Source: Pholiota molesta
Taxonomy: Eukaryota > Basidiomycota > Agaricomycetes > Agaricales > Strophariaceae
Assembly (NCBI GenBank): GCA_014925825.1
Contig: JACGCK010000025.1
Span: forward strand, 1 to 64,000
Direction: 5' to 3'
Length of the DNA: 64,000 nucleotides
The notes under the pieces are model-generated. The model saw nothing but the letters and a program-made list of their open reading frames with translations. It did not search any database and was not told the origin of the DNA. The stretch's first letter is position 1. Every line of letters begins with the position of its first letter. Positions 24,116 through 54,280 of this stretch are shown piece by piece. The position numbers were made by a program, and so were the translations under genes.

Positions 24116-24772
24116 ACATAGCGATATAGGACAACACCATACCATATGGATCACCGACAATGTACAGTGTGCCATAGCATATGGAGCCACCGAATTCGGT
24201 GAGTCGGTGAGCTTGCATTCTGTACAAGGACGGTGCTTATGTACTGATACGGAGGGTGTTGATTGGCTGGAGAGCCATCCATAGGCGGGGGGGGGGACCG
24301 GAGGGTACAGTGGGTGCCCCCGGTGCAGCTGTAAGGGGGGGGGGGGAATGTACGGTGGGCACCGGTGCTGGGGGGGACCAGGAATGTCCGGTGGGTGGGC
24401 TGGGGAACCAGGGATATAGTGAGCCCCGGTTCTGATCTAGGGGTGGGGCACTGGGGATATATTGTGGGCCCCGGTGCTGATCTGGCGGTGGGGCCCCGGG
24501 GATATATGGTGGGCCCCAGTGCTGGGGGGGACCAGATGTACCGCGGGCAGGCAGGGGAACCGGGGATATGGTGGGCCCCGGTGCTGATGTAGCGGCGAGG
24601 CACCGGGGATGTATGGTGGGCCTTGGGTGGGCCCCCGGTGGTGGGGGGACCAGGGATGTACGGTGGGCGGGCGGGGGACCCCGCGAATAGTTCGTGGGAC
24701 CAGGGATGTACAGCGGATGGGCGGGGGGCCCGCGAATATATTGTGGGCCCCAGTGCTCATCTAGCGGCGTGG
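24116..24772 (+). repeat. Left terminal inverted repeat with sub-terminal repeat units
   Basis: Matches the reverse complement of 44709-46366 (without the nested 943-bp element). From about 24360 inward it consists of variants of a ~50 to 60 bp unit with the core GGGGATATATGGTGGGCCCC then AGTGCTGAT, at least five copies, and several G-runs (24289-24297, 24335-24345). Repeated sub-terminal motifs of this kind commonly serve as transposase binding sites. Confidence 0.75.
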
Positions 24773-26290
24773 GGGGATCGTGGGGATATATGGCGGGCCC
24801 CGGTGCTGATCTAGCGGGGGGGAGGGACAGGATATATGGGGTCCTAGGATGTATAGTGGGCAGGGTGGTCCATTGGAATGGTCGTAGCATACGGTAGGAT
24901 ACTGAGGGAGGGCAATAGTTGCACGCAGAGACAGCAGAAAGCAGGGGGTAAAAAATATGCTTGCAAAGAAAATAACATAAATAAGCACCGGTAACGAGAT
25001 TAGTTACATGCACTGGTGACGGAAGCATTGGAAAAACTACTGGTAATCACACCACCGGTGATGGGGTCAAAAAAGTTGGGCTAGGGTGACAGCTGTTGCA
25101 GCCTTCAGGATTAGGGAGATGGAAGACCCAGCGAGTGGCTCACAGGCTCTCAGGGGGCCTTGAGCAAGTATGGGGTGGTGGAGGAAATGGTATGTAATTT
25201 CCAATGCACAAGAGTAGAACTGTGATCCCGGTTGCAAAGTGTCGACACCAGCTCCAAACAAAAACCACCGGTGGTGGGAGCATCAATCTGAGCACCGGAC
25301 ATTAGTGGCCACCGGTGATATATGCATTTCTCCTGCAAAAACATTTCCAGAACAAGTTCAATCATATACCCCAGAATAGAGGGGTGTATGCTGGAAACCG
25401 CTACACCATAAGGGCATTTCTTCAACCACATCATGATGTGGCTATAGAGGATCCCTAGGGCATGGGAGCATCAATGTGAGCCCCAGTGATTGGTAGCCAC
25501 TGGTGATGGGAGCATCAATCTGAGCACCAGTGATTGGTGGCCACCGGTGATATACACATTTCTCCTGCAAAAACAGTTTCGAGTCATCCTGCAGATTTGG
25601 GCGGCCCCCATACAATACCGGCTGTCGAAATTGTTTACACCGGTGCCAAAGTTCATATCATCTCCTACATGTGGGGGAGATGGACCCTTAAGAGCGCTTG
25701 AGCACTTCATGGACAAACATCTTCATGCAAAGTAAATTGCTCTCGGTAGTGTTGTTGCCTGCTTGAGATACTGGTGTGGAGAAGGATGATGGCTGAAAAG
25801 CCATTTCTGAGCACCAAAAATTAGTGGGGACCGGTGATTGGTGGCCACCAGTGATATAGCGCTTGAGCACTTCATTGACAAACATCTTCTAGTGATGATG
25901 GCTGACAAGCCATGATGGTGGCTGGAATTGAACCAAGCACCCTATCTCCTGCAAAAACAGTTCCAGAATACAATCATATTCAGCAAGCATATAGGGGTGT
26001 ATTCTGGAACTGTTTTTACAGGGATATACCTATGATGGCACAGTGGACACCTTTACCACTGTGCAATCAAGGCATATCCTACCTATCACCATTATGATGT
26101 GCCCATATACCCTGCCGAGCATGGTGGTGGCACTGGTGACGGGAGCATGAGCACTGGTGATCCAAGATTTGACGGTCTCACTTGAATGTTCAAAGATCTC
26201 TTCACTAGGTGATGAAATAAAGGTGGATGCAGGCAGGGGTGGCAATTTCAGCAAGATAGAAATGTGTACATCATTATGTTTACAATTAAA
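24773..26290. other. Left inner region of the giant element, no gene
   Basis: Repetitive DNA with recurring phrases such as GCCACCGGTGATATA, TCTCCTGCAAAAACA and GGGAGCATCAATCTGAGCACC. CACCGGTG palindromes occur at 25053, 25266 and 25542, among others. A 23-bp-arm hairpin is at 25948-26022. No coding frame is supported. Confidence 0.5.
25948..26022. repeat. Hairpin with 23-bp arms
   Basis: CCTGCAAAAACAGTTCCAGA and following (25948-25970) is the reverse complement of 26000-26022 with one mismatch; the loop is 29 bases. A decayed relative is at 25328-25400. Confidence 0.65.
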
Positions 26291-26739
26291 CTAATCTATT
26301 CCTTCCAGCACTTCCCATGGATCGAAGTCAGATGAATATAATGACTCAAAGAAGTCATCAAAAAGGAAGGCGAAGTCAGAAGGATCCAAAGGGCGGGATG
26401 GGCTCATCGAATGATTCGGTATGATCTGCCTGGTACCGGTACCTTCGATGGCTGCGGTGGGCTGATGGTGGTCAGAAATCGAATCTTCTTCCCCTGTTTC
26501 TTCACTGTCACTGGAATTCATATCAGTAGATGTGTAACCATTAGATGAGGCACCAGAGGTACCAGTATCAGAGTTGGAAATAGTTCCGGCAACCTCTTCA
26601 TTATCAGTTTCATCTGCACTTGTCTCATCTGCGCTATCACTATCATCCTGAATCTGCTCCCGGTGGCGGAGGCCAGTCGAAAGAACAATGCTTGTGGAAG
26701 TGCCCTCAGCGATGGCGGCGGCACCGGCGCTTGTGGGCT

Positions 26740-27085
26740 GATCAGCCATGTGAAGCCAATGCTGGCCCATGTCAGTGACAGCAGTGGGGATGCGAGAGCT
26801 ATCACTGGTTTTGGCGGAAGACATCTGAAGCCAACGTTGACCAACATCAGCAGCGGGGGGTGTCTGGATGGCGGCACCGGTGGGCTGATCAACCATGTGA
26901 AGCCAACACTGGCCCACGTCAGTGACAGCAGTGGGGATGCGAGAGCTATCACTGGTTTTGGCAGAAGACATCTGAAGCCAACGTTGACCAACATCAGCAG
27001 CGGGGGGTGTCTGGATGGCGGCACCGGTGGGCTGATCAACCATGTGAAGCCAACGTTGGCCCACGTCGGCAGTGATGCTGCTGGG
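26740..27085 (-). repeat. 147-bp coding tandem repeat (49 residues)
   Basis: Within the C-terminal part of the transposase-gene product; the half units DVGQRWLHMVDQPTGA and DVGQRWLQMSSAKTSD alternate. Two full units and a partial third are visible, with start points near 26744, 26890 and 27037 on the plus strand. Confidence 0.8.
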
Positions 27086-27200
27086 GGTAGTGGCCGGGGC
27101 CGGTGCACGAATTATGACATCAGGGATAACCAAACACATCCATTGATGTTCCACCGGTGCAGTGGCGCGTTCTTTACCTTTCATGGATCTGGTTGGATGG

Positions 27201-28103
27201 TAGTGCTTGGAAGTCCGGTCTCAGGACCGAAAAAAGACTGAGACTGGACCAGACCTGAACCGGAAAAGACCGAAATATTGATGGACCGGAAAAGACCGAG
27301 ACCGCGGTCCGGTCCACGGTCCAACAAGATTTGAAAAATAGATAGACCGATCAAAGACCGGTTTGGACCGGTCTCAACCGGTCTTTAGCTGTAAAAATTT
27401 GTAGACTTATAAGACGTCAAAAGTCCTTTTGAATGATGCATAAATCGTATTTTTAGCTTGCGAATTGGCGAAGTTATTAATATTTTTGTTTAACTAATTA
27501 CTTTGAGCGCTTAAAAACGCTTTTACCCGCAGTTCAAGCGTTAAGCGCGCGTGTCTTTCGCAAACTTGCACATAAATAGAAAATTTAAGGATCTACAAGA
27601 TGCAGTTTAGACCTTAATATTTTAAAAACATTCGATTGAGATATAGTAATATCTATGTTTTCTACTCTTTTTGACTACTTTAAAGACGCTTTTGCCTATG
27701 CTTCGTTCGATATAGACATCGCCGTTTCGCAAACTGTGGTACAGTTAGATATTAAAATTACCTCTCTAACGAGCATACAATTATAATATTCGGTTGAGAA
27801 TTGACTGAGATATTACAAAATGCGCTCAACCACTGCATTTGCTAGTATTTTAGTTGTTTCTCAGTCATTTCTCTACCGATTTTCGTATTATTTGAAGTAC
27901 TACGTACTAGATACAGTCTACTACGCAAATATTACCAGTCTGGACCGGTCTCAGACCGGTTGAGACCAGTTTAGACTGTAACCGGTGTCTTGTGCGGTCC
28001 GGTCCGGTTTTTTGAACATTTTAAAAATAGATGGACCGGTCTCGGTCTCGGTCCAAGCCCTCGGAGGGTAAAAGACCGGACCGGACCGGACTTTCAAGCA
28101 CTA
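27201..28103 (+). mobile_element. hAT-like non-autonomous element, copy A
   Basis: Termini are TAGTGCTTGGAAGTCCGGTC and, inverted, TAGTGCTTGAAAGTCCGGTC. It is flanked by an exact 8-bp duplication, TTGGATGG (27193-27200 and 28104-28111). 903 bp, no coding capacity, subterminal ACCGGTCT repeats. Collapsing the duplication joins the frames on both sides of the KDZ gene (GGDHP to TRSMKGKERA) without a shift. Confidence 0.9.
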
Positions 28104-31100
28104 TTGGATGGTCACCACCAGTGGCATCATCCATGAGGACATCATTACCGGTGGCTGACAATGATGCACCGGCGATATCTAAATCACCTAGTTGCACATT
28201 TGAATCCCCCAAATCCTCTTGATGATCCAAAAATGACGGAATAGTGTGCTGGGTCGGCGGTGGGGACACATGGATGGTGGGAGATCCTGGCTCATCGATA
28301 CCGGTGCCGGCGCTACCCATGTCATCGCTTTGGACTAACAAGTCGCCCGCCAAGGAACCATCTGGCAATGATAAATTGTAACCAGAATGACCAGTGATAT
28401 GGCCACCACTGGAGGCCAGGGAGATAACCTCATCTTTGGTTAAGGTCTCACCCATAGTCCACTTGTGGTGGGGAGGGTCTGCTGGTGACAACAAACTGCG
28501 ATTGAGGGTTTCCCTTGCAAGTTGCCGAACTTGGCGACTAGAGCGTGCCGTCTCCGAGTCCCCAGACATTACTGGAAGTACAGCTGGTGGGGCGGTGTCG
28601 GCTTCTTTGCGGAGGGCCTCCTCATATAGTACAAAGCTAGCAGTGGCCTGGCGGGTGTGAACTTCCATATTTGCCTTTTTTGATGCAATGAGCGCTGAGG
28701 ATAATTGCTTCATAGTTTGTACCTTTGCAACGAGTGCTGTTACAAGGGCATGATTTGGTTCGCAGGAGGAACATGATGTCGAGCCGGCGGAAGTTTGGAC
28801 GGCTGGTATCGGCTGGATGACAAGTTTTGGAACACGTTGTCCACCTCTTTTGTAGTGCCTTCCGGTGATACTTCAAACAATCGTCTATAGTCCCATGCCC
28901 CATGATGACATCGGGCCTTGTGGTTCCATTCCACCATGTGAATGCATATGAGTCAACCACCCTCCCAAATTCTTCAATGTCGGTGCCAGCTTCAATTATT
29001 TGACAAAGTCCGAGGTCGAGAGGAATTCGCTTGCCGCCGGTGTCAGAGAATGTTCCTAAGCTATCTGCTAGGGACCGAACCACCAAGGGGATCTCTACCA
29101 CAATGCCAGCAGAGGCAGCCAATCCTACATAAGACATCACAAAGAGCTAAATGGGAGTAAGAAAAATGTTGTAAAACATAGCATCAATCACACAATACAA
29201 ACCAGTTCATCGTGGAGGGAATGTTGCTGCCATTCGTGTTGCTTGCCGGAGGCGTTGATGGCGGCAAGAATGGTGCGGAAACGCGACTCGCCATAGTAGA
29301 TCATTTCCTGCAACTTGGCATGCCATTCCTGATTGGATCCAAGTTGAGTTTGCAGTGGGTTAAAAGCTTGAATAGAACGTTGAGCCATGAAAAAATCACA
29401 GATATGATGGTGGTACGTGATATAGATCGATAAGCTTTAGGCCATGGAAGTTGTGGGACAACACTCGATGTACATAATTAAAGCGGAGATTTATAATTAC
29501 TGAAGCTACTTCTGAATGCACAATCCGCAATGATGGCCAGTTGTCTCCACGTGACTGCTTGCCGCCGGGCATATGCAGCAGCACCAGGGAGGGGTTGCCG
29601 ACCATGTGTGAGACTTGTTTCTGCACCAGCGACCCAGAAATTACTTTTATGAAGGAAGTAGCGCACAGTCCATTCCATTTCATACCAGACCAACATTCGT
29701 TCCTCTGTCCACCGGTGGAGTTGTGCACGGGCCCGAAGCCAATGCACCCGCCGAACTTAACACACTTAGCATATGAGCAAGACAATGAAAACATTTCACA
29801 TACATTCCAATTGGGTTGCAGGGTCGGCTTCATCATCTGCCATGGGACCGACACGTTCAGTAACGGACTGCCAAATCCAAGAGAGCTTCAGTTTAGTTGA
29901 ACCCGGCAGATTTGGCTCTAACACTGCTGTGCTGCACTTTGTATCATCTTTAGTCAGGTTCTGAAAGTGTTGAAGTGTAGCGGCGTCAGCACCAAGTGCT
30001 ACAAGCCGGGACTGACATCGGGTATAAACCTGAGAAAGGAATGACAATGCCTTTTCCATTTCTTTTAGGACAGCCCTTCCCCGGGTGCGGACATCTTTTC
30101 TGGGGGCTTCTCTAACTTGTTCAGTCCAGCGAAAGGACATGTTAGCGACAAGGTCCCGAATCTGGTTCAGTTCCAATATTGCCTGATTTTTGCGGACTTG
30201 CAACTCCATCTTTCGATATGCAGCCGGTGCATTGCCATTCGACGGAAGGCACAGATCAACATCTTCCTCCGGGGTGCCATCAGCTTCATCTTCCACCGGT
30301 GCCGGGGATGACACATTTGCTTCATCATGAAGATCATCCCAATTGGCTAGGTTGTCCTTTATGCCACCGGCGTACTGGGCATTGATTTCAAAAACACCGG
30401 CAGCAATTTGAAGTTTATGCAACCTCGTCAGTAATGGTGTTAATGCATCTCGCAGTTTTTGAACTTGATTCATGTCCGCATCGCGTTGATCACGCTTCCC
30501 ACAACGGATGAGATATTGAATCTCAAGTCTGGATAATAAATAAGATGGCAATTTAAGGAGAAAACATTAAAAACAACTGACTGTTTCTCCTCTACCGTAA
30601 TTGAAAATTCAAGCCAATCTTTAATGGTAGGGTCACCGGTGACTGGTTCCAGTGTTGAAAGATTGCCATTGAACCCAGAAATTCTTGCACAATAGATGTC
30701 CATCACAGCGGGATCCTCCAAGCGTTCATGCTCTGCTTTCAGAATCTCCATATTCCACATGGCAATGGCGTCTTTTCCGGCAGCATTGGATATGTCGTTG
30801 AAATATTTCTCTGTTTGTCTCACTGTTGTGCAAGCTTCCTCGTGCCATCGGCAAAGATAGTTGGCTATGCTCAAAGCTTTTTTGTGGTTGGAGTCACAAG
30901 CATGATCATCCAGCACTTCTGCGCGATGTGCCAAGGTAGCAGTTCGGACAGTAGGAGAAATCGAATTTAAAGTGGACCACAAGGACTCCAAAATTTCACC
31001 ACTAACAATGCCAGTGCCGGGAATTAAAGAAGAAGCATAGCGGAAGAAGCATTGATCTTTGTGCGCATGCACATGGAACAGTCCGATTGCCCGGTCCAAT

Positions 31101-31855
31101 TCGAGGCCCTGAGGTAGTTTGCCTTTAAGGCGCTCTTTAAGGTGAACAAAATATTGGCAAGCAATATCGTACATCAGCATAGCACCCTGTTCAGGTTCAA
31201 CGCCTGTGGTTTTGAGTGCTTGCAAGAATGCAAAGTCAATATTTTTTTGCTGCTCCCCCTTGAACAAATCCACAAGTGCATTCGGCACATAACATCCATG
31301 CCGGGCACATGCAATGGATGCCTTCCCAGTGCGATCACAGCATGATGAACCAATGAGGGCATTGATGATAGCCCGGAATGTGTTCTCACAAGGTGCTTTC
31401 TGTGCAACTGGTACCAATTAGATAAGCAGAGCAATATAGCACTAGCTTAAAATCACATACTGTGAACATCTCCATTGCCTGGGCAAGGAAGTCTTGGTAT
31501 TCTTGCCATTTGGGATCCATTCCACCGCCTTCCAACAGCCAGATATCATTGTCTCCATTTTTCTGCTTTACATGATCAGCTTTGAAGTTCCCATCTGCCA
31601 CAAATACACGCTGGTACACATATCTAGACAGAGGTCAGAATCTGCAAAACTCGAAACAAGATATTACATACCGGTTATTGTCACTCTTCCAATTGTCTCG
31701 GAGATTTTTTCCGGGTTGAGGACAAGCTGGACAATAATTTGCCAACTCGCCAGCATCCACATTCATAGGATCTTTTCCATTATGCCCAAAACCTGCACCT
31801 CTTAACTTCTTCATCCAACGCCACAAATGCCCCAGACGTCAAAATTCCCGATATA

Positions 31856-32761
31856 TAGTGAATGACACGGGTAACCCATGGGTACCAGGAGGCCGACCCG
31901 TACCCCTACCCGCGAAAAACCGTACCCGCGAGCATGGGTAGGGGTTTCGGCGGGTTTGGGTAGTGGGTGTGACGGGTTTCGAGGGTCTCAAAACCCGCCT
32001 GGGTCAGGGCCATGGGTGAGCTCCTTCAAGCGTCTGCATACCACAGAGGCTGCAATTGCAGCACTCGTTGTGTATGCAGACGGCTGACGAGCCGCCCTGG
32101 TACCATCCTCTGTCCTCGTCTGCATTGTCCACAGCTGGCATCGTCGTTGTCGAGTTGTTGGCGGCATCCGCCATGCCATCCGCCGTCATTGCGCTGTCCG
32201 CTGTCGTTGTGCGTCCGCTGGGTGGTCGTCATGCTGGTGTCAGGGGATGGGTTGTGAATGGGCAGGGCTGTCGCTGTCGGCAACCATGGTAGATGGGGGG
32301 TGGGAGTGGCGCACACTGTCGCCGTCGCCAGCCGTATCCTGCAAGGGGGGAGTTTGAGATGGGGGTGGATGAAACGGACGTCACGGACTTGGGGCGCACC
32401 TGTTGGATCTCCCGCTCCTGGGTCTTCCCTTTGCTCTCCAGCCCCCATTTCCTTCGTCTCCTGACGTCCTCGGTCGTCGTCGTCCACTATCTAGCCGGCC
32501 CACATCCCTTATTGAAGGGGAGGGGCACGCGGCCGTGAGGAAGGGTGGAGAAATCGAAATCAACGAAGTTGTTTCGTTGATTTCGATTTAAATCTCCGCT
32601 TTAATCGAACCACATTGGGCGGCCCGCGAGTGGCCGCGCACCCGCGCGACCCGTGACTGGGGGTACGGGTTGAGGCTGGGTGAGGAAACCAGACCCCAAC
32701 CCGTACCCGGCAAACCCACGGCTCAAACCCGCACGGGTTTGAAAACCCATGTCAATCACTA
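31856..32761 (+). mobile_element. hAT-like non-autonomous element, GC-rich family, copy D
   Basis: 906 bp, ends TAGTGAATGACACGGGT and, inverted, TAGTGATTGACATGGGT. Exact 8-bp duplication CCGATATA (31848-31855 and 32762-32769). Subterminal regions are full of GGGTACGGGT-like units. It interrupts exon 2 of the KDZ transposase between PDLYR and EF. Confidence 0.9.
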
Positions 32762-34377
32762 CCGATATAGATCGGGTACTGCGTCTGGTGCAACAGGGTT
32801 TGACAACCGCCGGAGCAACTGATAGAACTGATATGATGATGCTTTAAGTTCAAGGTTGCACAACCGGAAGTACCGGAGTAATTGATCAGTGAACAATGTT
32901 CGCATGGTATGGAAACTTGTAGGCCACAGTTGGCATGCGATCAGGTCAAGTGGAAGTTGGGTGTCACCGTGGCACCAGCAGCCCACCATGGCAATATGAT
33001 GAATGCCATTTGTGTGCATGACCCGCACATATGCATTTTGGAATGCATCTGCACGTGGAAATGGCCCTGATGACTCTGCATGTGGTACCGGCGCCGGTGA
33101 GTATGTTTGTGCTATATCACCGGGAGTCATATTGAACTCCCCAGCTGTCGGGAGATATCGTGGAACATTTGTCACTTCAGTTTCCACATCGCACACAGAG
33201 TCTGTATCATCATCGCAAGGTTCCTCGAACAGATCTTCATGTTGGTTGCCTGCATGAAATTCGTCCAATTTTGCCCAGAATGCTTCATCTTCCATAGCTT
33301 CATCGCCGGCATCCGGAGGACGGATCTCTTGGGTACCGGTGTCATCCCCCATTGCCCAATCTGTTTCCTCCTCCGTTATAGGATTCGATGACATATTACC
33401 CCCCTTTGTTGCTTCTGCAAGAAGTGCTTGCTGCTCTGCGTCATCTGTCGGATGCCGGGCCTGTTCCAGAAATTGTTGTTGAGTGCGGAGGAGATCACAC
33501 AGAGGTTTGCCTTCGTAATGTTGAACGAGGACATATGCACCAACCTCCCATAATTCTGCCTTTCGAAAATAGGTTCCCGTCCATCGTTGGATTAAATGAA
33601 ACGGATTGTCAACATGGAGATGGTGCATGCATCTGCGACAGACTGGCTGAGAAAAGCTGCAATCGATGCACCTCCACACGGCGTAATGTTGAGTGCAATT
33701 AGAACATAGCACATGCATCGAAGGCAAGGCTTCACGAGATAAGGACGCTTGCAGGAAAGCATCTGCACGTTGAACAAATTCCAGTACATAGTCCCGTGAA
33801 GTCTAATGATACACACATGTCAGTTGGGTTTATTGCAGGATGCTTGGAGTTGAAACCTTCTGTGCTCGAGAATGCATGTCTGGTGGATTATCCACTGGCA
33901 TGTCACTGAGATCAGTTGGAAAATCATCTAGCGGGATGTTCTGAATAAATCCAGAGGGTGGGTTTGATGTCCCAGCTACTTTGGATGGATTTATTGCAGA
34001 CATTGGCCCATCCAAAGCCACCTTCACTTTTGTCGCTTTCATCTTCCCCTTCTTTGTTGTTCTGATCTCTGTTTTAAATGTAATGCCATGGGCAGCATCA
34101 ACATCTGTTTCCCATAAGGTTTTTCGTTTTTTGCCTCTCTTGGTAGACTGAACGAGTACAATGCGACTCATTGTGGAGGAACGGAGGGGTAATGGGAGGA
34201 CAGAAGGGGTGAATGTATTTTCATCTCGACACCTACCTCATGTTTTCCTCATGTTTCTAACTGAACAATTAATTCTCGCCATATAATATTGCCTCATGCC
34301 TACCATGTGGCCCCCCATGACCAATAAAATATAAATAAGATGTGTGGTCGTATGCCCATGCACTGATTTTCCTCCCA

Positions 34378-36824
34378 ATGTCCACCCCACAGGAGGAGGC
34401 CATGCATGAAGAGCATTCTGAAAAGCCACAAAATGAAGCACGTCCTGACAAGCGACAAAGAGTTTACGATACCAATGAACGGAAATTTATCGATCCTTTC
34501 AAAGAGGAATACCTCAAGGCAGAGAATAAGGATCAACGCCGCAACATTGCTATTACTAAAATACTCACCCCATTGTTCAAATATTGGAGCAAGGAAGGAA
34601 AGATGCCAACTGTAGAGGTGGAAGCAGTGGTGCGTATTCAATATGTTCTGAACGGTACCTATGAATGTTACTGGTGCCTATGAATGGCACCGGTACCCAT
34701 GAATGGTACCGGTAATTATATTATAATTTGCTAACATGTTAATATACATAGGAACTCATGAAATGGATCCGCAATAATTGGCGCTTGTCTCGCGCGGACA
34801 AGCCAGTCCCATTAGTGGTAAAACGGTCAGAGGTACTTTGGTTGAATCACAGAGAAGAGGTCTTCGAAGAGATAGCTACCTTACTTGGGGTACCAAAAGC
34901 GGACACCAGTACACCAGGATGGTTTCCAAAGCATATGAAAGCATTAGGCAACATACTTGCACGGAAGACTGAAGAAGAACTGAATGCATTTGACCGGGAA
35001 TGTGAAAAAATAGCAGTAGAAGGGTATACAAAAGAGCAGAAAATCCAGTGTGTATGCCGGCACTGGTAATTAACATTGAATCCTCACCGGCTGCTTGTTT
35101 AGGTATGCTGAAAAATATGGGATGAAGCGCTTCGATAAAGTTGCCACGGTGCACTACAAAGAAATGGGTTTGCTTACCATTTCCTTTGTTGCCCGGCCTA
35201 CAGATGATGGTGCATTGGCTGTGCAACTGTGAGTGCCGCTGGGTGTTTTGAAGATAACTTCCGGTGTCCAATATGTTGAATATTTATGTTATAGACACGA
35301 CAGGATTGGGAAGCAGCTTGGGGTTCCTGATGCATCCTTTGAAGGCATGTATGGCGGACCGGTTCTTCACATGAAAAAAATGCTCTTTGAGTATGTATAT
35401 TAAAACAATTCAAACTATGTTGGCAGGCGGGCCCTCCAGAATGGCCGGTGTACCGGTGGTAGACCTAAAATCCAGTGTTAGACTAACAAATGAGGGATAT
35501 CCCACACTACTACCTCATTACATACCAAGAGACACCAACAAGAGAGATCTCGAGCAACTTCTACGCGTCTATTTGCGCTATCATTACAGTGAGTATGATT
35601 ATAGTACTTTTTGAGATACCACGGATGATTGATATATATGCTCCAGAGCTGGCTACCGGTGGCCGGGCCAAACAGCCACCCTATGGCAAGCTGAAAGAAA
35701 ACACACCGACCTACATACAATCCCAATTTCTGCCATCCGGTATCACCATTGATGACCCCAGGAATATGATCAAGGAAGACATTATATCATTCTTGGAGCA
35801 TATTCAAGAACGAGCGAAGACGGAAGAAATCAGCCAAGTCTTTTGTTTCCATAATATACAGACATCGCGGGGAGTTGCTAAATCCAAGTATCCCGATGAG
35901 AAAGTACCGGAGGATGCAGAACCAGTTACTCCGAAGAAAAAAACAAGAAAAGATCAAAAAAGAAAAACCATGTGCGGGAGGAGACCGAGGCAGGACTCTT
36001 GAAGCTGGTATAGCACTTTCCAAGCAACAAGTTTATATATGACTGATGCAATCACATAGAATGAGAATCTAGAAAATACCGGCAATGCTAGTTGGGCCAT
36101 GGGGACCATTGACTTTAGTAGCCCCGGTGGCAGTAACAATCACTACCCAACACCGGCTGCCTCATCCCCAGTCCCCGGCCCATCTGCGCAAGCTTCCTTG
36201 CATCCTCCTGAATTCCAACATGTTTATGATCCAAGTCTAGAAGGGCTGGCTTATCATCCAAAACCAAGGCTCCCACCAAGCCCAGCACCCTCTGATGCAC
36301 ATGAGAAGCAAATAGAAAATGGTCAAATGGAGGGTGGGATACAGTCAAGCAGTAATGCTCAAGGGGGTGCAGAGGAACCGGTGGCGGCAGATAATACCGG
36401 TGGACCCCAACGGAAAGGTGGCAGGCGACCATTACCGGTGGAAAAGGCTAGTGAGGAACCGGTGGCACCCGATAACACCGGTGGACCAAAACGGAAAGGT
36501 GGCAGGTGACCGTTACCGGTGGAAAAGGCTAGTGAGGAACCGGTGGCACCCGATAACACCGGTGGACCAAAATGGAAAGGTGGCAGGCGACCGTTACCGG
36601 TGGGGCAACCAGTGGAAGCTCTACATGCAGATACCAGCAATCCAAATCACAAAGGCAAACCTGTAAAGGGACGTCATAAGAAGGTGGCGATAGCTGTTGA
36701 GCCCTTGGTAGAGGAGGGTACAATGGCAGTTACCCAAGGAGAACATGCTCCAGCATCCGAAGATGCAAGTGGGTGCATCTGCAGCAAACGAGCCATCAAG
36801 GCTCCGAGCAGACTTAACTTGTAA
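34378..36824 (+). pseudogene. Resident gene of unknown family (KDZ-associated), with a nonsense codon
   Basis: ATG at 34378. Exons 34378-34629, 34752-35047, 35103-35228 and 35295 to about 35391 join in frame: MSTPQEEAMHEE; WIRNNWRLSRADKP; EVLWLNHREEVFEEIATLLG; YAEKYGMKRFDK; HYKEMGLLTISFVARP; HDRIGKQLGVPDASFEGMYG. The exons from 35400 to 35630 are ambiguous because two frames are open. The last long exon holds IDIYAPELATGGR and LPSGITIDDPRNM, a basic Lys/Arg stretch, then an 81-bp tandem repeat. In the second repeat GGCAGGCGA has become GGCAGGTGA, a stop at 36507-36509. The frame continues after it to TAA 36822-36824. I recognise the family only as an uncharacterised protein common in Agaricomycete genomes; function unknown. 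Confidence 0.65.
36372..36605 (+). repeat. 81-bp coding tandem repeat (27 residues), three copies
   Basis: Units start at 36372, 36453 and 36534 with GAGGAACCGGTGGC. Each codes EEPVAPDNTGGPKRKGG-like sequence and holds three ACCGGT motifs, concentrating that palindrome. Confidence 0.85.
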
Positions 36825-36993
36825 ATAATGTTCTCTCAAATTATTATTCTCTCATTGCGTCTCCCAAAAATATATCGATGACCGGTAAGACTATATACAA
36901 GAGGGTGGGCAGGTACAAAAGATGTGCAAGAACTCCCAAAAAATATGAACTACAAAAAATATTTTGCCAAAACAACCGGGCCCCGGTGATCTA

Positions 36994-39900
36994 CTAAATG
37001 TCCATGTCCGAACCATCATTATTGGTGGTGAAACGCGGGGAGCGGCGAAGAATTGCAGCTGGATCTCCACGTGGTGTGCATGAGCGGCGTGGAACATGAA
37101 GGTGTTCACCAGGATTGGATGCCGGGGCGGGAGTCAGATGGGCTGGTGCAAACAAGAGCGATGAAGTCGGAGGCAGGACGCTGCCAGTGATAGGGGAGGG
37201 TCTGGACTCCGCTGCAGGTGGCAGTGATGAGAGCGGTGACGACTGAGGGGATTGATGTGTGGTTGACTGTGCTGGCGCTGGAGAAGACGTATGTGCAGGG
37301 ACACCATCTTGCTCTGGCACCGGAGGCTGCGTTGTCATCGGAGAAGACAGTCCATGCACAGACTCCGGCATCGGAGATCTCTCACTCGCCACATTGATGG
37401 GGGTGCCATCTGCGGCAGCAACCTCCTGCATAGACCCTGGGACCGGAGCAGAATACAATGTTGTGGCCACCTGTTCGGTGTCTTGAGAATTCACAGGGGT
37501 TGGAGGAATGAGGTTGATGTTGGGCGGAGGGATGCCCATGTTGGTGGCTGCAGGCAATGTGACGTCCGGTGGATCCAAGTTCATGGTGTTGGTGTCAGCA
37601 CTGACAGGGGCCTCGACAGGGGCCTCCATTGAAATGTCATTTAGCGCAAGAGCTGGCCCATCAGGGGCGGGCGCCAGTGTCTTCTCAGACAGCGGACCCC
37701 GGTGCTCCGGAGGCCTCTCATCGTGCATTGCACTGTTACCTGGGGCACCGGGGGCCACTGTCTGGGCGCAGGCCAGTGCCATCTTCAGACGCGCGATGAT
37801 TTCGTCCTTCGACTCTTCCTCAGCGTCTGAGTCTAGTAAGATTGGTCCTTGCCAAGGGGGTGGTGTCCGGGCTTCGACCTTCAAGTGCATGAGCTCCTCT
37901 GCAATGGTCTGTGCCAATGCGCGTGGAGTCAACGCGGGATTGACGGGCTCGTGCTCTTCGTCCTCAAAGCCATAGTTGTTCCCGTAATAGGGGGCTCTCC
38001 CGGCTCCGCCAGTTCCAAGCCACCAGTGTCCATAGCTGTCATACATCTCACGTGCCTTAGGCCGGTTCAACCTCGGTGCTGGGAACACCCTACCATTGAG
38101 CTTGTGCTCAAGCGCGCTCACACGGTCGATGAGTGAGCTGAGTTGTAGGAAGTGCTCCGCCTCCATATCAGCAAAGTGGAGGAATAGGTCACGACATAGG
38201 CGCCGTGACTTGAGGACTTCAGCACGGAGCTCATTGAAGATGACGGGAAGGGAAGAGGTGCGCTGGTCCAGCAGGCTTTGATTGGTCTGGATCATCTCCT
38301 GCCACCGCTCAAACTCCTCCAAAGGGACAAAACAGGGGCGGTTTGATGGACCAGCGGTGGATGGACCAGCAGTCTGCTCCCAAATGGGGTGTGTCAGTTG
38401 GGGCACTGCCTCCGATATGATGTGTGGAATGGCATGGGGGTCTATAATCTGTTAGGTACCGGTATGTAATGCTAATGAGACAACTTACCAGTGAATTCAT
38501 CCATCAAGTCATCGTCCGTTACCGGTGGGCTGTATATGGCTTGAAACAGTTCTCAGCTACCGGTAACGCCACTGCCACAGATTACAGGCATACCTTTCTG
38601 TTTGCCTTTGCTTTTTGCCTGAGCTACCAGCACCAGTGTGTTCTCGGATTCCGTCACCGGTGGGGATTCTATAGCTTCAAACAAGTTGTCAGCTACCGGT
38701 AAGCGAATGCCACAGCTTACAGCCAGCTTACCTTTTGCTTTGCATTTTCCTTTTGGGTCACCTACCAGCGCCAGTGCATTCGGTCTGACGGCCTGAGAGG
38801 CTCCTGCCCGCATCTCCTGGCTCACTTGAAATGATGTCCGTCAGCTACCGGTGCACGCCCCAGCAAAGACAAAGCTTACCTTGTGCTTTCCTTTTGCCAG
38901 CTTTCGATGATCCTGCCGGTGGGTTGTTACCTGCAGTGGAGGGCTCACCAGTCGCCGGTGGACCAGTCGCCGGTGGAAGTCGGAGCGCCGGTGTTGTGAC
39001 TATCTCTTCCTCTTCCTCTGGCTCTTCATCTTCGTCTTCATCTTCGTCTTCCTCTTCCACTTCCTTGTCCCAATCACGCGGGCCACCAATGATCTTCCCG
39101 TTGACTGGTCTAGCCAGCAAGAAGATCCCTGTACACTGTCATCGCCGGTCCCAGGGCCCGGTGTGGGCTTGCTCTTCACCTTCCCTGGCTTCGAAGGTTT
39201 GCCACTTTCATCGTCGGTGTCGTCGTCTTCAGCGGCTGTCGCACTTTTGGCCATTTTGACTTTTGTGGCGGTACCGGCGCCGGTGTCACTGTCTACAATC
39301 ATTGCCACACTTTTGACCTTTTTTTTGTTTTTTGGCGACAATGGCACCCTTCGGATCTACCGCACTTTTGACCTTTTTCGGTTTTTTGGCGACAACGGCG
39401 CCCTTCGGAACTACCTTGCCCTCATCCTTTGCCTGATTCCACTGCTTTCTTGTCCGGTGGCAGGACATCTTGAGTTTTCTGCAGTGTTCACATGGCGGCC
39501 GGCGTGGGCCGGCCACAAGGCATTCTTGCTGCATCACTTGGCACCGAATGCATGCCGGGACCCACTTTCCATCAACCGCTTGCCGGTGATCACCATCGAC
39601 GATGTGGGACGGAAGCTCCTGGTTGTCCTCTTTCTTCGGACGCTTCCGGTCCTGGGCTTCCTTCCCTTTTCCCGTCTCCTCACCGGTATCTTCCTTTGGG
39701 TTGTACTCTCCCTTGTCATCCGTTGGACGTCCACGCTTTCTTTTTGGCGGTACCGGTGCTGGATCGATGTTCATCTTTGTTGTTGGGGTCGGATCGATTG
39801 TGGTCACCGGTTTTGGAGGGGTTGGATCGACATCCATCATGCCTGCCGGGGGCTCAATGGACATTCTTGCCATCTGGTTGACAGGCGGGTGTGTTCCATG

Positions 39901-40757
39901 ACCGGAGGGTCCCGCCGCCGGTGTGGTCACGGTCACCATCTGACCGGAGGGTCCAGTCTTCTTGAGCTTCAAGGCGGCCTCTTCATCCTTCTCCCGTTGC
40001 CAACGTACTTTGGGGAGTTCCTTCATGTCGAGGACGGTGCCCGGTGGGTAAGGTATCATAGACTTATCTTTTGCCCAAGTCTTGTGTGCACCGTGAGGCG
40101 AAATGCGCAACGGTCTTTGTACCACTGGTTTTTTCTTTGCCTGGGGTTTTTTCGCCGGTTCTGTTGTCGAGACCGGTGTCGCTGCTGCTTTTGTTGACAC
40201 CGGGTTTGCCGGTGCTGTTGTTGACACCGGTTTTGCCGCCGCTGCTTTTGTTGAGACCAGTTTTGCTGCCGGTTGTTTGCTTGACACCAGTTTCATTGCC
40301 GGGGCTGCTGTTGACTTCGGTTTCTCCACCGTGGCTTTTTGGCCTTTGAGTGCGGACGTTGTTGGGTGATTGGCCTCAGCTGATCCAGATGGCCTACCCG
40401 CGGGGGGAAAGTCGTGGTTAGCGATGTCCTGTCGCATGAGTTCGAGGACATCGGGAAGTTATGTGCTGATTTTCATTGAGGAACCTCTCTGCAAAGGGTA
40501 GCCAGATGGACTTTTTGGCGAATACGGAACGGAGATGGGCATGATTGGCGTGTCGGAGGGTAAACAAAGTTGTCTGCAAGGAATGAATGTTGGGGTAGAG
40601 GGTATTCAGTTGAAAAACTCACGAATTCGGCCATTTGGGCCTTCACCATCCTCTCGACCTTGTCCTTTCCCTCTTGGACAGCGGTTTGAATGATCATTTC
40701 TAGGACGGCGATCCTGTGCGTCAGGTCCATGGGAGTGATCGAATGTGGGTTAGACAT
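36994..40757 (-). pseudogene. Resident Zn-cluster protein gene, frameshifted
   Basis: Minus strand, ATG 40757. Exon 1 (40757-40623) codes 45 residues, MSNPHSITPMDLTHRIAVLE and on, then a coiled-coil-like part from 40573 (LRSVFAKKSIW, FAERFLNENQH). Near 40454-40463 the frame slips by one: the reading LPDVLELMRQDIANHD continues only in another frame. Next come Ala/Pro/Lys-rich repeats (PVSTKAAA), then CIRCQ, CLVAG, CEHCRKLKMSC near 39520-39450, a six-cysteine binuclear-zinc-like cluster usual in fungal DNA-binding proteins. Downstream are acidic tracts, a set of repeated small exons and introns (about 38450-39000) and a last long exon of 38406-36994 (CFVPLEEFERWQEM, HFLQLSSLIDRVSALEHKLN, GHWWLGTGGAGRAPYYG). 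Treating all of this as one gene is an inference. Confidence 0.55.
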
Positions 40758-41007
40758 GGCGGAACAAGTGTTAGATGGTGGAAGACCAGAGTACGCGTAG
40801 GGAACTGGGGAGCGGAGGGAAGAACTTGACAAAAAGAAGAAGAGGGAAGAGGTTCGTGCATGAGAAGCATGTTCGAAATTAACCATAAGCACATGGTGTG
40901 ACATGAACGTGCATGGCGCCACGCGGGTCATGTGCCTCGCCAAACATATGGACATAATTCTAATGTTTACTGATCAGATATGATTATCTAGTCTCCCAAC
41001 CATCATC

Positions 41008-41690
41008 ATGCCACCCAGAAAAGCTCCCCAACCTACTATTACATTATCTGATGTCCCAGATGGATTTGTACTTGGTACAGCCCCCAACCACAAACAATAT
41101 CTGGTCCCCGACTTTATGCTGCCAGCATTGAAGCATGGTTTTGCAACCCGCAAGCACAAAGATGATCTTGCCATCGCCGGGGCTCAAGGAGGAGTAAGTT
41201 CACATGTCAACCACCGGAGCGGCGCTAAACTAATTGTGTCCCCGGTATTACAATCACAGTGCCTTCAGGCCCAAAGCAAGCCCTTCAATGTAATTGCGGA
41301 GGGATACATACTATTCCCTCCGACCCGGTATGTTACCTTCCGTCTTCATTATTCTGGATGGTCAACTCATTTGAGATTAGCCTTTGAGTGAGCACGAGCT
41401 GCTGAGCGCCCATGCAGAAATTCTTGCGCTACAACAGCAGTATGGAATTTCCTACAAAGATGCCACACACCGGCTATATATGGCACAGGTGGAAAGGTTG
41501 AAAATATCCAATTACGAGTCTTTACGCAGTAAAGTGAGTTCTTTTCACCGAGCAAAAAAAACGTACGTGCTGTCATCCCCATCACTGATGCCATCAATCA
41601 CACAATTCATCACGTGTTATCTTTATCTCCACAGTGCTTTAAATAGCCTGATATTTGCCATCATTGATATGTTACTCAAATAGATTTGAT
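41008..41690 (+). CDS. Resident gene of unknown family, 3' end displaced
   Basis: ATG 41008, MPPRKAPQPTITLSDVPDGF and on. Exon 1 runs to about 41193, followed by an exon from about 41262 (CLQAQSKPFNVIAEGYIL) and one from about 41391 (SEHELLSAHAEILALQQQYG, then ISYKDATHRLYMAQVERLK) to the GTGAGT donor at 41533. After the next acceptor (about 41635) a stop comes almost at once. An exon-like tail, TAYKDVKRIDDELDAILRSL then GE-stop, lies at 44377-44445, beyond a segment ending in a Helitron 3' terminus. This suggests that the last exon was displaced by insertion. The family is known to me only as an uncharacterised protein of mushroom-forming fungi. Confidence 0.5.
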
Positions 41691-42480
41691 CAGATCAACA
41701 TGCATTATATAAGCCTTGTAATTTGCAGCCATCATGGATTGCCTCTATTTGTCTAAGGCTCCATCACACACAGCCCACTTTGATTTGATCAGATCAACTG
41801 CATTATATAACCCATGCAAATTGCAGCCATATTGAAGACTGAAAGAGACTCATAATGTGGACCGGACTTTAGTCCATCATTATTTTAAAATTAGAGAGAT
41901 CAAAGAACAACCAAGTTGAACCAGTCTGGAAAGGTCTTTGCTCATGAAACTTAACAGCATTGAAGTGTCTAAATTTAACTTTCTAACCAGCCCAAGATCT
42001 TAATTTTAGGATGTGTTTTGCCCAAGTTATTAGCAAATGCACTTTTCATCCTCATTTTGGGCACTTGAAAACCGTTTTGGGCGCTTTTCAATGAATAATA
42101 ACAGGGCACTTTCGTAATTTTGCAGTATTATAGTACCTTTATATACACCTTTTTAACAAAAAAATTAATTGTAAATTTGGATAAGAATTGACCTGACTAT
42201 AATTAATTCTATCTGTCCTACTCATTTTGAGTAAGTAAAGGGTTTAAATAAAGACATATAGGTGCTGAATATGCCTACAGGCTTTGATTGTCTTACATTA
42301 TGACGTACAGGGTGTTGGAAAAGGCGTCCTAACGGCATTTTGGTATGCCTGTACGTCATTATTCTGAGACATATCTTGAAATATACCTATTTTAGGGTCT
42401 CAAATCAGATTTAATCATTACTCAGTCAATTCTCGGGCGAAAGTTACGATCTTGGGCTAGTTAGAAAGGTATGATTTAAT
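41691..42480. other. Gene-free repetitive stretch inside the giant element
   Basis: Begins with a direct repeat of about 118 bp (TTGATCAGATCAAC with ATTATATAA and TTGCAGCCAT, at about 41686 and 41785). AT-rich DNA follows, with a small hairpin at 42300-42359 (ATGACGTACAGG / CCTGTACGTCAT). No gene. Confidence 0.45.
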
Positions 42481-42566
42481 ACTACATTTCTGCTTTTTTA
42501 CGATAGAAACCTCCAACTATACATCAAACCACAAGTAAAATGGGAGCAAGCTGTGTCTTATTCTGG

Positions 42567-43584
42567 TAGTGCTTGGAAGTCCGGTCTCAAGACTGGAAAA
42601 AAACTCAAAGACCGGTTCAGACTGGTAATAGTTAGGTAGAATACTTTTGTAGTATGTAGTGCTTCAAAAAATATGAAAATCGGTGGAGAATTGAGTGAAA
42701 AACAATTAAAATACTAGCTAATGCAGTGGTTGAGCGCATTTTGTGATATCTCAGTCAATTCTTTACCATATATTATGATTCTATGCTTGTTAAAAGGGTA
42801 ATTTTAATATCTAACTGTATCCCAATTTGCGAAAGGGCGATGTCTATACTGAACGAAGCATAGGCAAAAGTGTCTTTGAAGTAGTCAAAAAGAGTAGAAA
42901 ACATCGATATTGCTATAGCTCAACCAAATGTTTTCAAATATTAAGGTTTAAATTGCATCCTGTAGATCTATATGTCCTCTATCTATGTTTAAGTTTGCGA
43001 GAGGTACGACCCATTAACGTTTGCACTGCGGCTAAAAGCGTTTTTAGACACCCAAAGTAATTACTCAAACGAAACTATTAATAACTTTGTCAATCTCATG
43101 CTAAAAATATGATTTGGACATCGTTCGAGAGGAATTTTAATGTTTTACTAGCCTACAAATTTTCACGGCCAAAGACTGCTTGGGTCCGGTCCAGACTGGT
43201 TTTTGATTGGTCCATCTGTTTTTTCAAACCTGTTGGACCGTGGACCGGACCGCGGTCTTGGTCTTTTCCGGTCCATCAATTTTCCTGTCATTTCCGGTTC
43301 AGTTCCAGTCCAGTCTCGGTTTTTTTCCAGTCTTGAGACCGGACTTCCAAGCACTACCAGAATAAGACACAGCTTGCTCCCATTTTACTTGTGGTTTGAT
43401 GTATAGTTGGAGGTTTCTATCGTAAAAAAGCAGAAATGTAGTTGAACCGATTGAGACCGCAAAAAACCGGTTCAAGTCGGTCCAGTCCAGTTTTTTGCGG
43501 TTTCGAAAACTGAAAGACCGGTCTCGGTCTCGATCTTGCCAAATATGGGCAAAAAACCGGACTGGACCAGACTTTCAAGCACTA
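42567..43584 (+). mobile_element. hAT-like non-autonomous element, copy C, internally rearranged
   Basis: 1018 bp, with 8-bp duplication TATTCTGG (42559-42566 and 43585-43592) and the same termini as copies A and B. Inside, the body is inverted. At its right, 43319-43442 is an exact-looking reverse complement of 42481-42604, i.e. of the element's first 38 bases plus 86 bases of DNA outside its left end. The true right end follows at 43443-43584. Confidence 0.85.
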
Positions 43585-43789
43585 TATTCTGGGTATTCAA
43601 CCAATACATGTGTGCTCGGCAGAAATGCTAAATATAGTGTGTACATGATTTCAATGATCCTATCATTGATTTAGTGATATGGCATAGGTTTGTAAGCAGT
43701 GCATTTACGTTGCTGATGTAATAGGTTTCTTTTGGGATTGATTAATCAATCTGATGGGCTGATAATTATCTTCCTTCCTCTCCACCAGT

Positions 43790-44078
43790 ATAATACCATT
43801 CAAATGGTTCAAGGTCAAACATATGCAACTTGACAGAATCTCTTTCCACATTCTGTATGTGTATAACCATTATCCTCCTTTGCGTCTCGGCTATCCTGGT
43901 GACTTGTACATCCAATGTACATCCAAGGATCTTCTTCTTCATTATGGTACAAAGTCAACCAGGAACATCCTTTGTGGAATAATGAATCATTTGGTTGGGT
44001 TAGGGTACCAGGTGATTTAGGATTGGATTATCATATCCATATCAAGCACCCTTTGTGTCATTTCCACTTGGTGGCTTA
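43790..44078 (+). other. Possible captured gene fragment
   Basis: An open frame codes NHYPPLRLGYPGDLYIQ and, after a frame change, WVRVPGDLGLDYHIHIKHPL, more protein-like than the surrounding AT-rich DNA. It lies directly before the Helitron 3' end at 44079-44377 and in the same orientation, so it could be a fragment carried by that Helitron. Origin unknown. Confidence 0.3.
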
Positions 44079-44377
44079 ATGTAAGAAAGAAAAAACTATT
44101 GATCTTCTATCAGATACCAAATGGCTTAAAGATTCAGATGGTAAGCATATGGCATATTGTATATACAGAAAGTAAAATCTGAATAAAATAATAATATAAT
44201 TACAATTTATGTATTTTAGGTTGTATTAGTAGGTCAAGCAATATTTATATATTTTAGTAATTGTATTAATAGGCTATGCTTCGCATGGCAATACAAGTCT
44301 TTACATACAAAACTGTTAAGTTTAATTTGTGTAAAGACTCGTATTGCCATGCAAAGCAATGGCCCGCAACACAAGTA
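44079..44377 (+). mobile_element. Helitron 3' terminal fragment, plus-strand copy
   Basis: About 300 bp matching the last codons (KKEKTIDLLSDTKWLK to CIYRK-stop) and 3' end of the minus-strand Helitron at 46997-47300, but in the opposite direction. It includes the long terminal hairpin (ATTGCTTCGCATGGCAATAC type). Similarity to the other copy stops at GCAACACAAGTA (44377), which defines the 3' terminus. Confidence 0.8.
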
Positions 44378-44445
44378 CTGCTTACAAAGATGTTAAACGT
44401 ATTGATGATGAACTGGATGCAATCTTGAGGAGCTTGGGAGAGTGA

Positions 44446-44708
44446 TGATTCGGTATGGGGACGGTACTGGCGTTACATAGCTGTACGTACTTAATATAAT
44501 ACAACATATTTATTCAGTCGAACACAATTAAGAGAAGGATAGCAGTATAATAGCACTAGGAGACATTTCATATTACAAATGGCGGATGACCGGTTCTCAC
44601 ATTCATGCTCCCACCACCGGTGACAAGATTACCACCGGTGACAAGACCACCACCGGTGACCACCCAGAAGTATGAGCCACTCACTGGGACGTGTGCGCCT
44701 CCAATCCA
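44446..44708. other. Right inner region of the giant element
   Basis: Between the displaced exon tail and the right terminal repeat. Three successive CACCGGTGACAAG / CACCGGTGACC units lie at 44615-44662, the same palindrome that marks the left inner region. Confidence 0.5.
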
Positions 44709-46366
44709 ATCCCACCGCTAGATGAGCACTGGGGCCCACAATATATTCGCGGGCCCGCCCATCCGCTGTACATCCCTGGTCCCACAAAATATTCGGGGGG
44801 TCCCCCGCCCGCCCGCCGTACATCCCTGGTCCCCCCACCACCGGGGCCCACCCAAGGCCCACCATATATCCCCGGCGCCTCGCCGCTACATCAGCACCGG
44901 GGCCCACCATATCCCCGGTTCCCCTGCCCGCCCGCCGTACATCTGGTCCCCCCCAGCACTGGGGCCCACCATATATCCCCGGGGCCCCGCTGCCAGATCA
45001 GCACTGGTGCCCACCATGTATTCCGTCCCCCCCCCACTAGCTCAGCACCGGGGCCCACAATATATCCCCAGTGCCCCGCCCCTAGATCAGAACCGGGGCT
45101 CACCATATATCCCTGGTTCCCCAGCCCACCCACCGGTAGTGCTTGGAAGTCCGGTCTTAGGACCGGAAAAAGACCGAGACTGGACCGGACCTGAACCGGA
45201 AAAGACCGGAATATTGATGGACCGGAAAAGACCGAGACCGCGGTCCGGTCCATGGTCCAACAGGATTTGAAAAATAGATGGACCGATCAAAGACCGGTTT
45301 GGACCGGTCTCAACCGGTCTTTAGCTTTGAAATTTTGTAGACTTATAAAACGTCAAAAGTTCTTTTAAATGATGTATAAATCGTATTTTTAGCTCGAGAA
45401 TTGGCAAAGTTATTAATACTTTTGTTTAACTAATTACTTTGAGCGCTTAAAAACGCTTTTACCCACAGTTCAAACGTTAAGTGCGCGTACCTTTTGCAAA
45501 CTTGCACATAAATAGAAGACATATAGATCTATAAGATGCAATTTAAACCTTAATATTTAAAAAGCATTTGATTGAGCTATAGTAATATTTATGTTTTCTA
45601 CTCTTTTTGACTACTTCAAAGACGCTTTTGCCTATGCTTCATTCAATATAGACATCGCCCTTTCGTAAACTAGGTTAAAGTTAGATATTAGAATTACCTC
45701 TCTAACAAGCATACAGCCATAATATTCGGTTGAGAACTGACCGAGATATCACAAAATGCGCTGTACCACTGCATTTGCTAGTATTTTAGTTGTTTCTCAG
45801 TCATTTCTCCACCGATTTTCGTATTCTTTGAGATACTACATACTAGATACAGTATACTACCCAGTTGCTACCAGTCTGGACCGGTCTTTAACCGGTTGAG
45901 ACCGGTTTGGACCGTAACCGGTCTGAACCGGTCTTTGGACTGCTCAAGACCGCAGTGGACCGGTCTTATGCGGTCCAGTCCGGTTTTTTGAGCATTTTAA
46001 AAATAGATGGACCGGTCTCGGTCTCGGTCCAAGCCCTTGGAGGGTAAAAGACCGGACCGGACCGGACTTTCAAGCACTACCCACCGGACATTCCTGGTCC
46101 CCCCCCAGCACTGGTGCCCACCGTACATTCCCCCCCCCCCTTACAGCTGCACCGGGGGCACCCACTGTACCCTCCGGTCCCCCCCCCCCCCCCCCGCCTA
46201 TGGATGGCTCTCCAGCCAATCAACACCTCCGTATCAGTACATAAGCACCGTCCTTGTACAGAATGCAAGCTCACCGACTCACCGAATTCGGTGGCTCCAT
46301 ATGCTATGGCACACTGTACGTTGTCAGTGATCCATATCATATGGTGTTGACGTATGTCCCTACCTG
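44709..46366 (-). repeat. Right terminal inverted repeat, split by a nested element
   Basis: 44709-45136 plus 46080-46366 is the reverse complement of the left repeat 24116-24772, with a few indels, including one extra ~50-bp unit near 45000. Copy B of the hAT-like family sits in it. Confidence 0.8.
45137..46079 (+). mobile_element. hAT-like non-autonomous element, copy B
   Basis: 943 bp, flanked by the 8-bp duplication CCCACCGG (45129-45136 and 46080-46087). The left terminal repeat of the giant element shows the empty site at about 24386-24405, in inverse orientation. This confirms both the element ends and the target duplication. Confidence 0.92.
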
Positions 46367-46996: not shown

Positions 46997-47026
46997 TACT
47001 TGTGTTGCGGGCCATTGCTTCGCATG

Positions 47027-47105
47027 GCAATACGAGTCTTTACACAAATTAAACTTAACAGTTGTAATAAATGTAAAGACTGTATTGCCATGTGAAGCAA
47101 TGGCC
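47027..47105 (-). repeat. Helitron 3' terminal hairpin
   Basis: Arms CCATTGCTTCGCATGGCAAT and on (from 47031) and TGTAAAGACTGTATTGCCAT to about 47105 pair over about 30 bases. The same hairpin is at 44273-44362. It is much longer than the ~16 to 20 bp hairpin of classical Helitron 3' ends. Confidence 0.75.
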
Positions 47106-54272: not shown

Positions 54273-54280
54273 GTAATCAA

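Follow-up and report, generated by a model that had tools for sequence, protein, structure and literature searches.

Is the 22-kb interval that lies inside one stretch of the Pholiota molesta genome a mobile element, and do the genes within it belong to that element or are they passengers? The stretch analysed (positions 1 to 64,000 of contig JACGCK010000025.1, assembly GCA_014925825.1; 64,000 nucleotides, referred to as the window) had been described in a sequence-only reading as holding a cargo-bearing transposon of the KDZ superfamily, whose transposases are of the DDE type. From a comparison with related elements in the P. molesta genome (Strophariaceae, Agaricales; 65.6 Mb in 625 contigs), we consider it highly probable that the interval is a degraded large KDZ-superfamily DNA transposon, Kyakuja-like, with its own conserved four-gene kit and two unlike ends.

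Borders and gene content of the element

The element is real and cleanly bounded (Table 1). The heptamer ATTCGTT flanks it once per side and is exact over 7 bp; as a control for chance, random pairs of 7-mers from the window were identical in 22 of 200,000 draws. A duplication of 7 to 8 bp had been claimed, of which the 7 bp stand and the 8 bp do not, because 15 of 22 duplicated pairs of related ends exclude an extension to 8 bp on both sides (in seven pairs, that of the window included, extension by one terminal base is possible). Likewise, the proposed span of 24116 to 46366 holds as a bounded element with its start corrected to 24115. The element splits a single unit of a tandem repeat of about 340 bp, as had been noticed before, and the two flanks together rebuild that unit: once joined, they align with the neighbouring unit at 83% identity over 499 columns, in which a base left out at the join appears as a 1-base gap. 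This diverged array is unlisted by Tandem Repeats Finder and was detected by a separate repeat search of the window.

Terminal inverted repeats (TIRs), predicted at about 650 to 700 bp, were found with arms of about 0.65 kb, the right arm being split by a later insert of 943 bp. The aligned blocks of the left and right arms are 93% identical over 286 columns and 86% over 426 columns; under the same threshold, 20 control pairs of stretches lying beyond the element yielded no inverted match.

Within these borders, the predicted KDZ transposase is borne out by a Pfam KDZ (PF18758) match at 30473-31417(-) with an E value of 3.8e-38 (131.8 bits against a cut-off of 26.6). The Pfam CxC2 domain matches at 32762-33802(-) with an E value of 3.7e-17 (62.9 bits against a cut-off of 27) and is assigned to the same gene because CxC2 and KDZ occupy neighbouring same-strand exons in relatives. 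Both hallmarks of the KDZ superfamily, the KDZ domain and a CxC cysteine cluster, are present above the curated Pfam cut-offs. The relatives also support three non-transposase genes on both strands (the residents), one of them with six cysteines (at 39289-40458(-)), in agreement with the initial description. Frames 36997-38451 and 39289-40458 appear to form this one six-cysteine gene.

Table 1. Location of the element, its genes and its nested inserts (window coordinates), and full-length relatives (contig coordinates) with the tips of each family
Feature	Position	Strand	Remarks
Whole KDZ element (family A)	24115..46366	unstranded	22,252 bp; left terminus (left-type tip) CACATAGCG; right terminus read inward (right-type tip) CAGGTAGGG
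Target site duplication, left copy	24108..24114	unstranded	ATTCGTT
Target site duplication, right copy	46367..46373	unstranded	ATTCGTT
Left TIR	24115..24770	+	inner limit approximate
Right TIR, interrupted by insert	44704..46366	-	inner limit approximate (~44704)
KDZ transposase gene	28024..34237	-	several exons; interrupted by nested insert; limits taken from open frames and not from a gene model
Gene 2	34339..35999	+	multi-exon; no Pfam match
Six-cysteine gene	36997..40973	-	C-x2-C-x6-C-x9-C-x2-C-x6-C in 39289-40458; charged and coiled-coil-like parts
Gene 5, first part	40984..41510	+	small gene; frame resumes at ~44377 past nested insert
Nested 903-bp insert	27201..28103	unstranded	TAGTG...CACTA ends; 8-bp duplication TTGGATGG
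Nested 906-bp insert	31856..32761	unstranded	TAGTG...CACTA ends; 8-bp duplication CCGATATA
Nested 2.9-kb high-copy repeat inside gene 5	~41511..44376	unstranded	98% copy on contig C179
Nested 943-bp insert in right TIR	45137..46079	unstranded	TAGTG...CACTA ends; 8-bp duplication CCCACCGG
C533 full-length element	C533:161332-174795		13,464 bp; duplication GACCTCG; tips CACATTGTA (left type), CAGGTAGGC (right type)
C25 full-length element	C25:56164-71170		15,007 bp; duplication ACCTGAA; tips CACAAAGCG (left type), CAGGTAGCG (right type)
C223 full-length element	C223:1134348-1152219		17,872 bp; duplication CCTGGAT; tips CACATAGCG (left type), CAGGTACCT (right type)
Family B			tips CACATACCC (left type), CAGGTAGCG (right type)

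One gene block in five families

Five families were compared: that of the window (A), B (with copies on contigs C356, C212, C94 and others), C533, C25 and C223. According to blastp of open frames, A, B, C533 and C25 share a colinear block of transposase (-), gene 2 (+), six-cysteine gene (-) and gene 5 (+). C223 holds the same four genes with the order inverted: gene 5 (-) at 1135761, the six cysteines (+) at 1138034, gene 2 (-) at 1141061-1141833 and KDZ (+) at 1145871. The block is therefore present in all five families with the same set, order and relative strands, so that the claim of a delimited unit with a fixed gene set holds for this genome. A full-length copy with an exact duplication lies on a single contig in four of the five (A, C533, C25 and C223); for C223 the duplication was taken from the left flank before the right end was looked up.

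Between families, the KDZ core is 63-76% identical, the two gene 2 exons measured 30-58%, the gene 5 exons 29-64% and the six-cysteine frame 26-37%. The pN/pS ratio (nonsynonymous over synonymous differences) ranges from 0.21 to 0.69 over 36 comparisons of exons from the transposase, gene 2 and gene 5, and from 0.58 to 0.71 over six comparisons of the six-cysteine gene; synonymous sites are mostly saturated, which makes the ratios a rough guide only. Judged from these values, the residents diverge together with the transposase and are under purifying selection.

Two unlike ends

The termini fall into two types, with a CACA-type tip at one end and a CAGGTA-type tip at the opposite end. We collected 60 ends, which form 25 pairs on one contig and 1,745 other pairs. 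An exact 7-bp duplication was found in 22 of the 25 same-contig pairs, and all 22 are unlike; the three like pairs (on C5, C356 and C212) have no duplication, with 5-7 mismatches out of 7. Exact matches among the other 1,745 pairs number five, all of them unlike, and two of these repeat a shared flank. The pairs are not independent, since copies from two short non-autonomous families account for many of them. Most of the pairs with a duplication are short non-autonomous copies with C25-type or C223-type ends, and they show that both types have moved repeatedly.

Such short, seemingly non-autonomous copies (mostly about 3.4-3.9 kb), with exact 7-bp duplications and C223-type or C25-type ends, are located on C112, C603, C179, C100, C71, C24, C590 and C97, and on C300, C14, C605, C589, C57 and C25 (73223-76799).

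It might be argued that the asymmetry is ordinary, imperfect TIR tips having diverged by chance and been inherited by copying, with no functional rule behind them. Unlike left and right ends do occur in many DNA transposons, and non-autonomous copies inherit their ends. A comparison of the two arms of each element, at columns 3-16 and at columns 61-160, is informative here. In A (9/14 and 99/100 matches) and C25 (11/14 and 100/100), two of the four elements, the tips differ though the adjoining arms are nearly identical. In C533 (6/14 and 74/100) and C223 (7/14 and 77/100) the TIRs have diverged well inside the tips too, as chance divergence would have it, with arms past position 60 only 74% and 77% identical. 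Consequently, only A (99%) and C25 (100%) suggest that tips are kept apart despite homogenisation. Chance divergence is less easily reconciled with the first six bases CAGGTA being identical at one end, and CACA at the other, in all five families, though the arms are largely unalike between families. The absence of a duplication from the three like pairs also argues against it, as does the gene block, which is found in either orientation with respect to the tips (C223 is reversed against A, C533 and C25, and C127, a sibling copy of the window element, against A). We put chance divergence at somewhat below an even chance, and interpret the tip pattern as the mark of two functionally distinct ends. 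A stricter rule would have a transpososome that forms only on CACA plus CAGGTA tips, selection that holds the tips apart while the TIRs recombine and flip the block, and three obligate residents, making up a four-protein eukaryotic system. We regard this combination as rather doubtful.

Resident genes or cargo

A profile search of the contigs yielded 128 KDZ matches, which reduce to 70 loci once matches starting within 3 kb of each other are merged (genome match counts are lower bounds, as only the best candidates were scored). Of the 9 loci found for gene 2, 8 have a KDZ match no more than 13 kb away, as do 7 of the 9 found for gene 5, against at most 2.8% of the genome that close to a KDZ match; several of these loci are copies of one family, and the independent count is five families. 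The KDZ-less contigs C193 and C484 are truncated, and each has an element end whose partner, identified by an exact 7-bp duplication, is on another contig (C61 for C193, C602 for C484). The C61 end adjoins the C-terminal part of a family-B transposase, and C484 (a 17-kb contig) has gene 5 and six-cysteine matches without a gene 2 or KDZ match. Since most of the 70 KDZ loci are away from gene 2 and gene 5 matches, the kit is characteristic of a single subgroup among KDZ elements.

Outside P. molesta, relatives of gene 2 are few. A first protein search gave eight at E <= 0.001 (five from P. molesta, one from Hebeloma cylindrosporum and two weak unnamed ones) and a second gave three, adding P. 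conissans; each search scored about 8,000 candidates. Gene 5 has 537 related proteins at E <= 0.001. Among the 120 of these matches that were listed, many are unnamed metagenome proteins, and the named ones come from Agaricales, e.g. Flammula, Hebeloma, Phlegmacium, Psilocybe and Amanita. In P. conissans gene 2 and gene 5 are found on contigs of one length, 21,160, and bear the locus tags 900849 and 900851, a spacing of two that recurs in P. molesta (927055/927057 and 928435/928437). This suggests that P. conissans has one gene between gene 2 and gene 5, as in P. molesta.

A carrier of cargo in the sense of Starships would hold captured host genes that vary between elements. The residents are without a Pfam family, and the 537 relatives of gene 5, many of the 120 listed being from other Agaricales, may include free-standing host copies, both of which such a carrier would accommodate. 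It is made improbable by the agreement of all five families in gene set, order and strands, by the finding of gene 2 and gene 5 in this genome only at such elements, and by the purifying selection indicated for the kit genes. Because every family has the same residents in colinear order, and their age is about that of the transposase divergence, we interpret them as an intrinsic kit and not as variable cargo. The description as a cargo-bearing counterpart of giant elements is thus not upheld: among the families compared, none showed variable cargo of host origin. The three resident families do recur beside KDZ within related ends, in the five families of the P. molesta genome. The finding proposed beforehand as refuting, that the residents would usually be located away from KDZ transposases, is contradicted in this genome, but there are hundreds of gene 5 relatives elsewhere whose neighbourhoods were not read.

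TET/JBP genes were tried as element cargo and ruled out, as none of the five genome matches is close to a KDZ match by coordinates. These matches are at C1:11550, C34:35000, C268:304883, C1:615047 and C124:10405, and only one (with in-frame neighbours) is above the cut-off. Among the 20 element frames scanned with Pfam, shorter frames being outside the scan, none matched TET/JBP. The same 20 frames gave no match to a tyrosine recombinase captain; the transposase is KDZ. An 11.5-kb copy at C108:29188-40733, with C25-type ends and the exact duplication GAGCTTC, has between its ends none of the listed matches to KDZ, gene 2 or gene 5, and possibly carries other DNA.

That the interval arose through misassembly, or is an inverted repeat by chance, is scarcely credible: although the copies on C356, C212 and C5, which have like tips at both ends, lack a duplication and share a flank with another contig, were probably misjoined or recombined between elements, the window copy has an exact duplication and splits a tandem array at one place, and related copies have exact duplications at unrelated sites. 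On account of their like ends, the lack of a duplication and the right flank that they share, C356 and C212 are treated as recombinant or misjoined and not as intact family-B copies; C212 is homologous to C356 up to the end of contig C356, so the length of the shared stretch is a minimum.

A model of transposition and points against it

For a transposon with its own kit and two unlike ends, the following sequence of events is probable. An intact family would move by cut-and-paste through its DDE transposase, which would pair one CACA-type end with one CAGGTA-type end; that insertion involves a staggered 7-bp cut is shown. The three residents would be intrinsic genes aiding transposition or its regulation; the six-cysteine protein perhaps binds DNA, and the gene 5 protein may be a coiled-coil partner. 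Recombination between the long TIRs would even out the arms and could invert the gene block relative to the tips. Later inserts would then have inactivated the window copy.

Besides the saturated synonymous sites, the dependence among end pairs and the diverged arms of C533 and C223 mentioned above, several points weigh against this interpretation. Mobility is read from the sequence of one assembly, with no excision or movement seen, and both known copies of the window family (the window copy and C127) are damaged. The six-cysteine motifs match Pfam Zn_clus with E values of 0.013, 0.038 and 0.21, all below the cut-off, and the sixth cysteine of family B falls outside the open frame. The predicted structure of gene 2 is poor, with a mean predicted local distance difference test score (pLDDT) of 46.6 from six sequences, and its profile gave a single match to solved structures (E 0.33), taken as chance. 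For gene 5 the predicted structure (pLDDT 84.4 from 35 sequences) consists of a hairpin and long helices, and a fold search returned 142 matches at E <= 10 with none at E <= 0.001, the best being WW domains at E of about 1. Given the poor gene 2 structure and the lack of a confident match for the gene 5 fold, the roles proposed for the resident proteins are guesses.

Nested inserts and state of the window copy

The proposed 22-kb unit indeed measures 22,252 bp between its borders, of which four later inserts account for 5,618 bp together; without them the element is about 16.6 kb. The 903-bp insert, which we take to be hAT-like, is missing from the sibling copy on C127, and the 943-bp insert is related to it. 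C127 is 98% identical to the window copy over 3.7 kb, with the match ending at window position 31785; a third copy of the family was not found in this genome. The 906-bp insert breaks a transposase exon whose frame is open without a stop in B, C533 and C25. As the frame is otherwise open, the window transposase has probably been disrupted, unless splicing removes the insert. The last exon of gene 5 is divided by the 2.9-kb repeat, beyond which its frame continues as YKDVKRIDDELDA. Judging from these later inserts in the transposase and gene 5, the window copy is probably dead.

To the right of the element lies a Helitron (window 46997-54284) with PIF1 helicase and Helitron_like_N frames on the minus strand. 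Its end at 46997 shares about 300 bp, inverted, with the right part of the nested repeat (~44078-44377). A 72-bp tandem repeat of about six copies (window 54681-55184) is located within an open frame that adjoins the Helitron.

Relation to known elements

The comparisons below refer to the accessible parts of the cited reports. Kyakuja elements of Agaricomycetes (Kojima 2025, PMC12730594) are described with a 7-bp duplication, 5'-CA...TG-3' termini, a TET/JBP gene and no TIRs, the last feature being reported there for two Laccaria families only. The P. molesta elements have in common with them the KDZ transposase, the 7-bp duplication, the 5'-CA...TG-3' termini and an Agaricales host; they differ by TIRs of about 0.65-0.8 kb behind unlike tips, by three other residents and by the lack of a TET/JBP match in the scanned frames. 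The name Kyakuja-like thus follows the duplication and the termini, while the presence of TIRs departs from Kyakuja as described. The 8-bp duplication of Zisupton is excluded by 15 of the 22 related pairs.

KDZ1, KDZ2 and KDZ3 of Cryptococcus neoformans (PMC12810828) are mobile units of about 9-11 kb with CxC1, TIRs of 139-241 bp and 4-8-bp duplications. They share a KDZ transposase with a cysteine-cluster domain and TIRs with the elements studied here, which have CxC2 and longer TIRs; no comparable resident set is described in the accessible part of that report. In Pleurotus ostreatus (PMC7641404) CxC2 precedes intact KDZ transposases, as it precedes the transposase core here, and TIR motifs of KDZ elements are available for Marasmius oreades (PMC8290104); resident genes and unlike ends are not described for either species in the portions consulted. 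Giant KDZ elements are reported in Ectocarpus, with an active 31.7-kb one in Chlamydomonas (PMC12477816), and the same report treats large KDZ elements with accessory genes as known, with reference to Iyer et al. 2014. The Ectocarpus and Chlamydomonas elements resemble those of P. molesta in their great size, additional genes and nested inserts, but the hosts differ and no gene set in common is described in the accessible text. Starships, tyrosine-recombinase giants also reported in the basidiomycete Tremella (PMC13066641), are similar as large fungal elements with several genes; they belong to another enzyme class and are, as far as that source could be consulted, far larger with variable cargo, whereas the P. 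molesta block is the same in five families.

Large KDZ elements with accessory genes are therefore, according to the accessible text of PMC12477816, already known, and it is the conserved kit and the end pattern that merit following. A description of this resident set or of the unlike-ends rule was not found in the literature searched, which excluded most subscription journals and supplements, and this is no proof of novelty.

If the interpretation is correct, Agaricales would hold large DNA transposons with a conserved multi-gene kit (including three proteins without a Pfam family) and two distinguishable ends. The end rule, together with the 7-bp duplication, would then be a cheap means to delimit elements and to detect misjoined contigs. 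Overall, such elements would offer a defined unit for testing KDZ end choice and the roles of accessory proteins in large eukaryotic transposons.

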